Below, in pieces: positions 26,797-29,946 of a DNA stretch of 48,754 nucleotides (position 1 is its first letter; the number at the start of each line of letters is the position of its first letter). The DNA lies in NCBI GenBank assembly GCA_023701125.1, contig JAMPXO010000026.1, positions 1-48,754 on the forward strand, written 5' to 3'. The stretch comes from Vicinamibacteria bacterium. Lineage in GTDB: Bacteria > Acidobacteriota > Vicinamibacteria > Fen-336. The position numbers and the translations under genes are program-made. Below the pieces are notes generated by a model that saw only the letters and a list, made by a program, of their open reading frames with translations, had not been told where the DNA came from and made no database searches.

Positions 26797-29700
26797 GTGC
26801 AGGACACGAGCGCGCTGACGGGCCTCGGAGCCGAGGCCGCCGAGGAACTATTTGCCCGCTACCGGCGCGACCCTGCTTCGGTCGCGCCCGCCTGGCGAGC
26901 CGTCTTCGCCGCGCTGCCGGAGCAGCGGACGCTCGCCGACGACGAGGCCACGGTGGAGCCGGAGCTGGACCCGACGGACGCCTCGGCGGACGCGGCCGAA
27001 CGGGTGCCGTACCTGCGCCACGTCTCGCTGTTCCAGGGCCTGTCGGAGACGGACCTGGTGCACGTCGCCTCGCTCGCCCGTCGCGTGGTGCTGCCCGCGG
27101 GCGAGCGCCTGTTCGCGACCGGCGATCCCGCCGACGCGCTGTTCGTCGTCGGCGACGGCGCGCTGCGGGTGGAGCGCAACGGCAAGGTGCTGGGGCTGAT
27201 CCGCGAAGCCGAGGTCGTCGGCGAGATGGGCCTGGTCGACGGCAAGCCGCGCTCGGCCGACGTCTTCGCCCACGACGATGCCGTGCTGCTGGAGCTGCCA
27301 GCCGCGGCCTTCTCCGAACTCGTCGAGCGCCGGCGCGGCGTCGGCCGTCACCTGTTGCGGGTGCTGGCGTCGCGGCTGCGCCACGCCAACGCCCAGCAGG
27401 AGCGGGTCGACCAGCTCGCCCGCAGCTACCGCAACCGAGGTCATGCCGTCGCCCGGCTCGACCCGCTCGGGCGCCGCGGCACCGCCGACCCCGAGCTGAG
27501 CCTGGAGTACCACGGGCTGTCCGAGGACGACCTCGACACCCCTTTCACGCTGCAGACCGGCGCGGGCCCGCGCACGCTGCCGCTGCGGGCGATTCAACGC
27601 AAGCTGGAGAACACCTACTGCCGCTCGATCGGCGTGCAGTTCATGCACATCGACGACGAGCGCGTCCGCCACTGGCTGCAGCACCGGATGGAGGACGGCG
27701 AGAACCGGCTCTCGCTGTCGCGCGAGGAGCAGCGCCGGATCCTCGGCAAGCTGACCGACGCCGAGGTGTTCGAGACCTTCATCCACCGCAAGTTCGTCGG
27801 CGCCAAGCGCTTCTCGCTGGAGGGCGGGGAGAGCCTGATCCCGCTGCTCGACATGGCCGTCGAGGAGGCGGCGGCCCTCGGCGTCGAGGAAATGGTGATC
27901 GGCATGGCCCACCGCGGCCGGCTCAACGTGCTGGCCAACGTGATGGGCAAGCCGCCGGCGTGGATCTTCGAGGAGTTCAAGGACCGCGACCCGGACCGCC
28001 ACCTCGGCGGCGGCGGCGACGTGAAGTACCACATGGGCTTCTCGAACGATCACGCCACCGCCAGCGGGCGCAGCGTGCACCTGTCGCTGTGCTTCAACCC
28101 CAGCCACCTCGCGGTGGTCACGCCGGTGGTGCTGGGCCGGGTCCGCGCCAAGCAGGATCGCGCGGGCGACGAGGCGCGGCGGCGGGTGATGGGCCTGGTG
28201 ATCCACGGCGACGCGGCCTTCGCGGGCCAGGGCGTCGTGCAGGAGAGCCTCAACCTCTCCGGCCTGCCCGGCTACCGTACCGGCGGCACGCTGCACGTGG
28301 TCGTCAACAACCAGGTCGGCTTCACGACCGATCCCGAGTTCTCGCGCTCGACGCCCTACGCCACCGACATTGCGCGCACGCTCGACGCGCCGGTGTTCCA
28401 CGTCAACGGCGAAGACCCGGAGGCCGTGGCGCAGGTGATCCGGCTGGCGATGGCGTTCCGCACGGAGTTCGCGCGCGACGTCTGCATCGACATGTACTGC
28501 TACCGGCGCCACGGCCACAACGAGGGCGACGACCCGACCTTCACCCAGCCGGTGATGTACCGCTGGATTGCCCAGCAGCCGCCGGTGCGCCAGGGCTACC
28601 TCGCCCACCTGCAGGAGACCGGCGGGCTGTCGGCCGCCGAGGCGGAGGAGATCTTCGTGGCCTCCCACCGCCGGCTCGAGGAGGAGCTGCAGCGGGCCGA
28701 GGCGGGCGACCTGCCACCGGCGCCGCACACCTCGGACCGATTGTGGAAGGCGTATCGTGGCGGCCCCGACGCGGACACGCCGGAGGGCGACACCGGCGTC
28801 GCGCTGCCGACGCTGCAGTCGCTGCTGCGGGCGCAGACCGTGGCCCCGAGCGGCTTCCAGGTCCATCCCAAGATCCAGAAGCTGTTCGAGACGCGCACCG
28901 AGATGGCCGCCGGTCGGCGCTCGCTCGACTGGGGCGCGGGCGAGGCGCTGGCGTTTGCCAGCGTGCTGGCGGACGGGCTGCCGATCCGGCTCTCGGGCCA
29001 GGACGCGGGCCGCGGCACGTTCACCCACCGCCACTCGGTGCTGCACGACCACGGCGACGGCCACCGGCACGTGCCACTGCAGCACCTCTCGCCCGGCCAG
29101 GGCCGGTTCGAAGTCTGGGACTCGCCGCTGTCCGAGGTCGGCGTGCTGGCCTTCGACTGGGGCTACTCGCTCGATCGGCCGGCGGGGCTGGTGATCTGGG
29201 AGGCGCAGTTCGGCGACTTCGCCAACGTGGCGCAGGCGATCCTCGACCAGTTCGTGGCTTCGGCCGAGCAGAAGTGGCGGCGGCTGTCGGGGCTCGTGCT
29301 GCTGCTGCCGCACGGCTTCGAGGGCCAGGGCCCCGAGCACTCGTCGGCGCGGCTCGAGCGGTTCCTGGCGATGGCGGCCCGCGACAACATCCAGGTGGCG
29401 TCGCCGACGACGCCCGCCCAGCTCTTCCACCTGCTGCGGCGGCAGGCGCTGCGGCCGTGGCGCAAGCCGCTGGTCGTGATGTCGCCCAAGAGCCTGCTGC
29501 GCCACCCGCTGGCCGTCTCGCCGCTCGACGAGTTCGCCCAGGGCCGCTTCTGGCGCGTGATCGGCGACCCGGTGGTCGATGCCTCCGCCACCCGCCACGT
29601 GCTGCTGTGCAGCGGCAAGGTCTACTACGACCTGGCGAAGGCCCGCGACGAGCGCGGCGCGAACGACACCGCGGTCGTGCGGCTGGAGCAGCTCTACCCG

Positions 29701-29946
29701 CTGCCCGAGGCCGAGCTGCAGTCGGTGCTCGACCGCTACCCGACCGCGCGACTGACCTGGGTGCAGGAGGAGCCGGCCAACATGGGCGCCTGGGGCTTCC
29801 TGCGGCTCAACCTCTCGCCCGCGGCGATCGGCGGGCGCTCGCTCGCCGCCGTCGCCCGCGCGGAATCGGCCAGCCCGGCGACAGGCTCGGGCGCCAGCCA
29901 CAAGGCGGAGCAGGCGCTGCTGCTGGATCAGGCGTTCGGGGCGTAG
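26797..29946 (+). CDS. sucA: 2-oxoglutarate dehydrogenase E1 with inserted cNMP-binding domain
   Basis: 1049 residues. Residues ~14-40 (AEELFARYRRDPASVAPAWR) are the E1o N-terminal segment that contacts E2. Residues ~70-198 are a complete cyclic-nucleotide-binding domain (LFQGLSETDLVHVASLARRV, LPAGERLFATGD), with phosphate cassette GEMGLVDGKPRSADV holding E143 and R152. From ~202 the ordinary E1o body resumes: QLARSYRNRGHAVARLDPLG, MAHRGRLNVLANVMG, HLSLCFNPSHLAVVTPVVLG, HGDAAFAGQGVVQE (thiamine diphosphate region) and YRRHGHNEGDDPTFTQP. It decarboxylates 2-oxoglutarate and transfers succinyl to E2 in the TCA cycle. GTG start. sucB follows after 8 nt; no lpd nearby. Confidence 0.93.
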   Translation: MQDTSALTGLGAEAAEELFARYRRDPASVAPAWRAVFAALPEQRTLADDEATVEPELDPTDASADAAERVPYLRHVSLFQGLSETDLVHVASLARRVVLPAGERLFATGDPADALFVVGDGALRVERNGKVLGLIREAEVVGEMGLVDGKPRSADVFAHDDAVLLELPAAAFSELVERRRGVGRHLLRVLASRLRHANAQQERVDQLARSYRNRGHAVARLDPLGRRGTADPELSLEYHGLSEDDLDTPFTLQTGAGPRTLPLRAIQRKLENTYCRSIGVQFMHIDDERVRHWLQHRMEDGENRLSLSREEQRRILGKLTDAEVFETFIHRKFVGAKRFSLEGGESLIPLLDMAVEEAAALGVEEMVIGMAHRGRLNVLANVMGKPPAWIFEEFKDRDPDRHLGGGGDVKYHMGFSNDHATASGRSVHLSLCFNPSHLAVVTPVVLGRVRAKQDRAGDEARRRVMGLVIHGDAAFAGQGVVQESLNLSGLPGYRTGGTLHVVVNNQVGFTTDPEFSRSTPYATDIARTLDAPVFHVNGEDPEAVAQVIRLAMAFRTEFARDVCIDMYCYRRHGHNEGDDPTFTQPVMYRWIAQQPPVRQGYLAHLQETGGLSAAEAEEIFVASHRRLEEELQRAEAGDLPPAPHTSDRLWKAYRGGPDADTPEGDTGVALPTLQSLLRAQTVAPSGFQVHPKIQKLFETRTEMAAGRRSLDWGAGEALAFASVLADGLPIRLSGQDAGRGTFTHRHSVLHDHGDGHRHVPLQHLSPGQGRFEVWDSPLSEVGVLAFDWGYSLDRPAGLVIWEAQFGDFANVAQAILDQFVASAEQKWRRLSGLVLLLPHGFEGQGPEHSSARLERFLAMAARDNIQVASPTTPAQLFHLLRRQALRPWRKPLVVMSPKSLLRHPLAVSPLDEFAQGRFWRVIGDPVVDASATRHVLLCSGKVYYDLAKARDERGANDTAVVRLEQLYPLPEAELQSVLDRYPTARLTWVQEEPANMGAWGFLRLNLSPAAIGGRSLAAVARAESASPATGSGASHKAEQALLLDQAFGA

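Follow-up and report, generated by a model that had tools for sequence, protein, structure and literature searches.

A cyclic-nucleotide-binding domain between the N-terminal hairpin and the catalytic body of a bacterial 2-oxoglutarate dehydrogenase E1: a candidate allosteric switch

Known post-translational control of 2-oxoglutarate dehydrogenase is exerted by metabolites, by Ca2+ or by an FHA protein. The classic E1 components (SucA/E1o), such as those of E. coli (2jgd) and Vibrio vulnificus (6kma), have an N-terminal helical hairpin followed by the E1_dh, Transket_pyr and C-terminal domains with the active-site histidines, and their genes stand in the order sucA-sucB. The protein described here is like them in each of these features and is 46-48% identical to them over the body; in the classic enzymes, however, the hairpin and the catalytic body have no domain between them. 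The actinobacterial KGD/OdhA enzymes (8p5r, 2xt6; PMC10415282) do have a whole extra domain in this same slot. In their case the slot is filled by an E2 acyltransferase, and OdhA has a 17-residue linker (PMC10415282) in contrast to the continuous helix predicted here. The E1o of the actinobacterial enzymes is under signalling control by an FHA protein, GarA/OdhI (PMC10415282).

The extra domain of the present protein belongs to a family with effectors of other kinds. Cyclic-nucleotide-binding domains (CNBDs) of PKA and PKG regulatory regions, of MlotiK1 and of CRP, GlxR and Clr have the same fold (Z up to 18.9) and the canonical cassette with its Glu and Arg, but their effectors are a kinase, a channel or a DNA-binding domain, whereas here it is a TCA-cycle dehydrogenase. 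In the mycobacterial acetyltransferase Pat (4ava; NF058543), to which there is a sequence match, a bacterial CNBD is likewise N-terminal to an enzyme. That enzyme is a protein acetyltransferase which modifies other enzymes, while the CNBD described here sits inside the metabolic enzyme itself. The Bact_Pyrredox family (Kannan et al. 2007, PMC2246266) has its CNBD on a redox enzyme and a canonical cassette, GEMGLISGRRRGATVRA, but differs in combining tandem CNBDs with a pyridine nucleotide-disulphide oxidoreductase. Nowhere in the text of that 2007 CNBD survey (PMC2246266) does the word "dehydrogenase" appear. A search of open-access papers on OGDH or sucA with cyclic-nucleotide binding turned up no description of the architecture; an unremarked database entry for a CNBD-E1o may well exist.

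The window, that is, the whole stretch of 48,754 nucleotides that was analysed, corresponds to contig C152 in a draft genome of 5.4 Mb and 254 contigs. One of its reading frames encodes a SucA/E1o with a complete CNBD that follows the hairpin and precedes the catalytic body (Table 1), and the nearest named relatives with the fused gene are the Acidobacteriota MAGs "Vicinamibacteria bacterium ACD1" and "Acidobacteria bacterium ACD2". A preliminary description of this DNA had named the product a SucA with a complete cNMP-binding domain between its N-terminal segment and its catalytic part, and Pfam and NCBIfam bear this out with matches above their cut-offs. The 2-oxoglutarate dehydrogenase E1 equivalog NF006914 scores 1210 bits (cut-off 764) and TIGR00239 scores 1066 bits (cut-off 770) against the 1049-residue protein. 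In Pfam, cNMP_binding covers residues 97-178 (63.5 bits, cut-off 27.5, E 1.8e-17), and C-terminal to it lie E1_dh (325-637), Transket_pyr (709-902) and OxoGdeHyase_C (908-1047). By Foldseek, the model of the whole protein matches SucA 6kma with a TM of 0.94 by target length and 48% identity. Residues H260, H298, S302, H313 and H729 of E. coli E1o correspond to H372, H412, S416, H428 and H848, and the counterparts of H260, H298, S302 and H729, which serve ThDP chemistry and 2-oxoglutarate, are all kept; the KGD row, being misaligned, was left out of this active-site alignment. Membership of SucA is further reflected in the partner E2o gene, sucB, immediately 3' of sucA. Since Pfam finds no E2 acyltransferase (PF00198) in the 1049-residue protein, it is not of the KGD/OdhA two-in-one type. 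Nor is it of the CRP/FNR transcription factor type, since no C-terminal HTH follows the CNBD and the C-helix enters the E1 body.

Table 1. Positions of the CNBD-containing sucA, its parts and the genes discussed, in window coordinates
Feature	Residues	Positions	Strand	Basis or remark
sucA (CNBD-containing 2-oxoglutarate dehydrogenase E1)		26797..29946	+	GTG start, 1049 aa ORF
2-oxogl_dehyd_N helical hairpin, N-terminal, E2/complex-binding	4-43	26806..26925	+	Pfam PF16078, 35.3 bits (cut-off 27)
Flexible linker	44-65	26926..26991	+	Low pLDDT, varying length, dN/dS 0.65
Cyclic-nucleotide-binding domain (CNBD)	66-198	26992..27390	+	Pfam PF00027, model, homologue alignment
Phosphate-binding cassette VGEMGLVDGKPRSADVFA	141-158	27217..27270	+	E143 = 27223-27225, R152 = 27250-27252
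Continuous helix (predicted), CNBD C-helix to first helix of E1 body	180-218	27334..27450	+	AlphaFold2 DSSP
E1o catalytic body	199-1049	27391..29943	+	E1_dh, Transket_pyr, OxoGdeHyase_C
sucB, E2 succinyltransferase		29955..31037	+	360 aa, start 8 bp past sucA; PF00364 + PF00198
Class III cyclase (HisKA-REC-cyclase)		21354..23414	+	PF00211, E 7.3e-46

The preliminary description placed the CNBD at about residues 70-198 and proposed structure prediction as a check. AlphaFold2 gives a CNBD of the CRP/PKA type, a beta-roll with flanking helices, and the models put the whole fold at about 66-198. Mean pLDDT is 84.9 for the full protein and 89.0 for the isolated CNBD. The isolated model matches cAMP-bound GlxR (3r6s) with a Z of 18.9 (VIA), and further fold matches are Bcy1, Clr, the PKA regulatory CNBDs and a cUMP-bound CNBD (8jsk). 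Among solved CNBDs, the nearest in sequence are those of apicomplexan PKG, PKA RI-alpha and MlotiK1. The cassette is not strictly CAP-like, as the earlier label had it: its Glu-to-Arg spacing (9 residues) and its nearest solved sequences are PKG/PKA/MlotiK1-like, although the CRP-type GlxR and Clr are among the fold matches.

The cassette, which we take to match the pattern of PROSITE PS00889, has its Glu and Arg exactly where they had been reported, at E143 and R152 (GEMGLVDGKPRSADV). Among 31 homologues, numbered according to the window protein, G142, E143, R152, A154 and D155 fall within the ten most conserved columns of the CNBD; the Glu is present in 27/31, the Arg in 30/31, A154 in 31/31 and D155 in 30/31. 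Between the window and a genome of the same genus (G001), dN/dS is 0.17 in the cassette (a small sample), 0.44 in the CNBD, 0.20 in E1 and 0.65 in the linker. The low cassette value points to a stronger constraint on the cassette than on the rest of the CNBD. The CNBD is quite likely to bind a nucleotide, and cAMP is the probable ligand.

The lineages that have lost cassette residues count against reading the domain as a ligand switch. A four-member myxococcal clade (L144, L147, L149 and L152) has exchanged the cassette Glu for Gly, a possible loss or change of ligand, and in L056 the Arg is a Trp. These lineages, those without the whole domain, and a dN/dS laxer in the CNBD than in E1 all fit a structural or oligomerisation module, the fossil of a sensor whose response to a ligand has been lost. 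The cassette, however, ranks with the most conserved parts, and its dN/dS in the window genus is the low value given above (a small sample); such a fossil is distinctly improbable. The domain might also sense something other than cAMP or cGMP, such as cCMP, cUMP or another small anion: CNBD families bind diverse ligands (PMC2246266), the cUMP-bound 8jsk is among the fold matches, the Asp155 that follows RSA is nearly invariant, and the window genus has Ala at the position of the coupling glycine. Such a ligand is unlikely, given a canonical cassette (GE...PRSA) like that of cAMP- and cGMP-binding families and the presence of adenylyl-type cyclases. The coupling-glycine position is Ala112 in the window genus and Gly in 27/31 homologues. 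Kannan et al. (PMC2246266) tie the Gly of the beta2-beta3 loop (PKA G169) to the coupling of cAMP binding; the window CNBD lacks this canonical glycine (Kannan et al. 2007), which is no condition of PF00027 membership. Because of Ala112, the response of the window genus may differ from that of its relatives.

The two sides of the CNBD differ in how they are joined to the rest of the protein. On the N-terminal side, the hairpin helices span residues 9-24 and 31-38 in the full model, and residues 43-61 of the linker have a pLDDT below 50. Across the 31 fused proteins, 29-107 residues lie between F37 and P71. On the C-terminal side, one helix spans the junction (DSSP: H180-218 in the model of the whole protein, H120-159 in that of the CNBD alone), so that the C-helix of the CNBD and the first helix of E1 are a single element in the predicted structures, with the caveat that AlphaFold2 can prolong helices across junctions. 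Residues 66-218 have no internal gaps in the 31 proteins, which are 28-80% identical to the window protein there. This would be expected if register along the helix were important. Standalone CNBDs of these phyla mostly have a net length other than that of the fused-CNBD model, net length alone being compared since hmmalign indel counts include end effects. The ungapped junction and the continuous helix, set against the loose linker, support coupling into E1 better than coupling into the E2-docking hairpin. Direct allosteric control by a cyclic nucleotide acting on E1-E2 docking had been proposed in the preliminary description; the intact and conserved CNBD speaks for control of this kind, but the docking route is weakened by the same contrast between linker and helix.

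A docking mechanism would have the CNBD sense the nucleotide and steer assembly of the complex by positioning or occluding the hairpin, with E1 catalysis unaltered. The placement of the CNBD between hairpin and body, and the retention of the hairpin in nearly all homologues, are in keeping with it. A disordered linker of so variable a length would nevertheless be a poor transmitter, the CNBD-E1 side is length-invariant, and one homologue (L048) apparently lacks the hairpin yet keeps the CNBD. There is only a small chance that control is confined to docking.

The preferred reading is that of a 2-oxoglutarate dehydrogenase E1 with a built-in allosteric cyclic-nucleotide switch, rigidly coupled to the E1 body, and on the sequences and models its chances are somewhat better than even. 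Bound in the CNBD with E143 to its ribose and R152 to its phosphate, a 3',5'-cyclic nucleotide (cAMP is the likeliest) would shift the B and C helices as in PKA, CRP and MlotiK1. Since the C-helix is also the predicted first helix of E1, its motion would be carried into E1 and alter its activity or its dimer or complex state. Some allosteric effect on E1 is probable on this evidence, and the second messenger would thereby set TCA flux at 2-oxoglutarate. With an intact, conserved and ligand-competent-looking CNBD in a bona fide SucA, recurring across phyla, the foremost hypothesis is direct control of 2-oxoglutarate dehydrogenase by a cyclic nucleotide. The protein belongs with the E1o enzymes and probably acts as a CNBD-controlled one. 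If so, a direct wire would run from a second messenger to the carbon/nitrogen branch point, with neither a transcription factor nor a kinase between them, in a natural case of a CNBD grafted onto a large homodimeric enzyme. Relatives that lack one of the two cassette residues (Glu or Arg), the beta-roll or the entire domain provide built-in controls, and roles of bacterial cAMP beyond CRP-type transcription control would become addressable by plain enzymology.

That bacterial E1o proteins normally have no insert, as the preliminary description held, is true as a majority statement. In three phylum samples, the fused gene is found in 24 of 640 E1-bearing genomes (Acidobacteriota 6/214, the phylum of G424 11/311 and the phylum of G433 7/115). 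The search that it proposed among SucA homologues, for an E1 N-terminus followed by cNMP_binding and the E1 body, finds the architecture in about 32 species, all from Acidobacteriota and Myxococcota-type genomes. A scan of the genome collection gave some 20 further loci whose alignment runs across CNBD and E1 alike. With 22 of the fused proteins made into a CNBD model, 31 distinct species were confirmed, to which G835, cut by a contig end, was added. When Planctomycetota were scanned with the CNBD-junction profile, the matches listed were all CNBDs in which the match ended before the E1 helix, with no fused case among them, and none of the best 60 PDB chains for the fused-family profile extends over CNBD and E1 body together. 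Two genomes of the same genus (G001 and G002) carry the fusion at 86% protein identity, and in the other genera of the window's family the only E1 is of the KGD type and lacks the insert. The oddity of a single genus, which the first search of relatives had suggested, is ruled out by the genome-collection scan and the phylum samples. An assembly or gene-model artefact that fused two genes might be suspected in a 254-contig draft; it is refuted by the same fusion in independent assemblies of G001, G002 and about 29 further species, with an ungapped junction, and its probability is negligible.

In the E1 tree (FastTree, without a proteobacterial outgroup), the fused state needs six changes, five of them forced by well-supported branches, and several of the fused lineages are early branches within the classic E1o of this sample. 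CNBD and E1 distances are correlated across the fused proteins (Mantel r 0.75, p 0.0001), and the fused CNBDs group apart from standalone CNBDs, except for the weakly placed sequences of the window genus. This correlation and clustering favour, but do not prove, a single old acquisition with repeated loss. One genome (G362) has no CNBD, while its fused congener G395 has one. In another (G510, L163), the first and last CNBD helices are apparently kept and the beta-roll is gone; the N-terminal region is an apparent deletion fossil of the CNBD, with a profile match of only 5 bits and a homology that rests on alignment with the related L143. Since the cassette or the domain has been lost in some lineages, the CNBD is, on this sequence record, dispensable there. 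Within the window's family, only the window genus has the fused gene, and the window E1 groups with a "Bdellovibrionales" MAG in the E1 tree, which suggests that the genus acquired the fused gene horizontally beside its resident KGD. The full account, in which an old architecture of Acidobacteriota and Myxococcota was repeatedly lost and cAMP switches E1 through the shared helix as a one-protein control of the TCA cycle, is tentative, its chances falling a little short of even.

No second E1o was found in 26/30 fused genomes, which are drafts and may be incomplete. As the sole E1o found in these genomes, the CNBD-containing protein is probably the working enzyme. Second E1 genes are a KGD in the window genus, the window genome encoding it separately (L003, G000 contig C200), and insert-free E1o in G239 and G399. 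KGD-type two-in-one E2-E1 enzymes, which PMC10415282 treats as an actinobacterial feature, are common in the window's Acidobacteriota family (L003, L010-L019).

Class III cyclases are present in all genomes of the first set (28 handles, among which G438 and G439 are apparently G280 and G395), including the insert-free G362, and in six further fused genomes. PF00211 cyclases are also present in 33/36 insert-free controls. Being equally common without the insert, cyclases are permissive and not discriminating, and their presence was discarded as support for nucleotide control. A HisKA-REC-cyclase lies upstream of sucA, at 3.4 kb in the window and 2.0 kb in G001, in a synteny of three species (the window, G001 and G002). 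Its residues KTIGD and DLWGDAVN presumably denote adenylyl-type specificity, and it is a possible source of cAMP for the sucA product. An opposite-strand gene intervenes, which rules out a single operon of cyclase and sucA, and outside the window genus the cyclase was not seen near the other fused sucA genes. An AraC-family HTH gene (23693-24811) is located between cyclase and sucA in the window and has no match in the shorter gap of G001 and G002. The first ~140 residues of the cyclase reading frame resemble an out-of-frame receiver domain, so that the true start is probably further downstream, nearer residue 143; a separate REC gene may lie ahead of the cyclase.

The sucB product of the window has no E3_binding/PSBD match (PF02817), even at an E of 1, and in the window genus it consists only of a lipoyl domain, a proline-rich linker and a catalytic domain. 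PSBD-less E2 genes also occur in some insert-free Acidobacteriota and Planctomycetota, and 13/17 E2 genes that adjoin fused sucA have a PSBD-like stretch, recognised by pattern in 9 and by eye in 4. Absence of the PSBD is thereby ruled out as part of the mechanism. Elsewhere in the window, at 2231-5552, are respiratory complex I genes, with a fused 30/49-kDa subunit (NuoCD) followed by NuoG.
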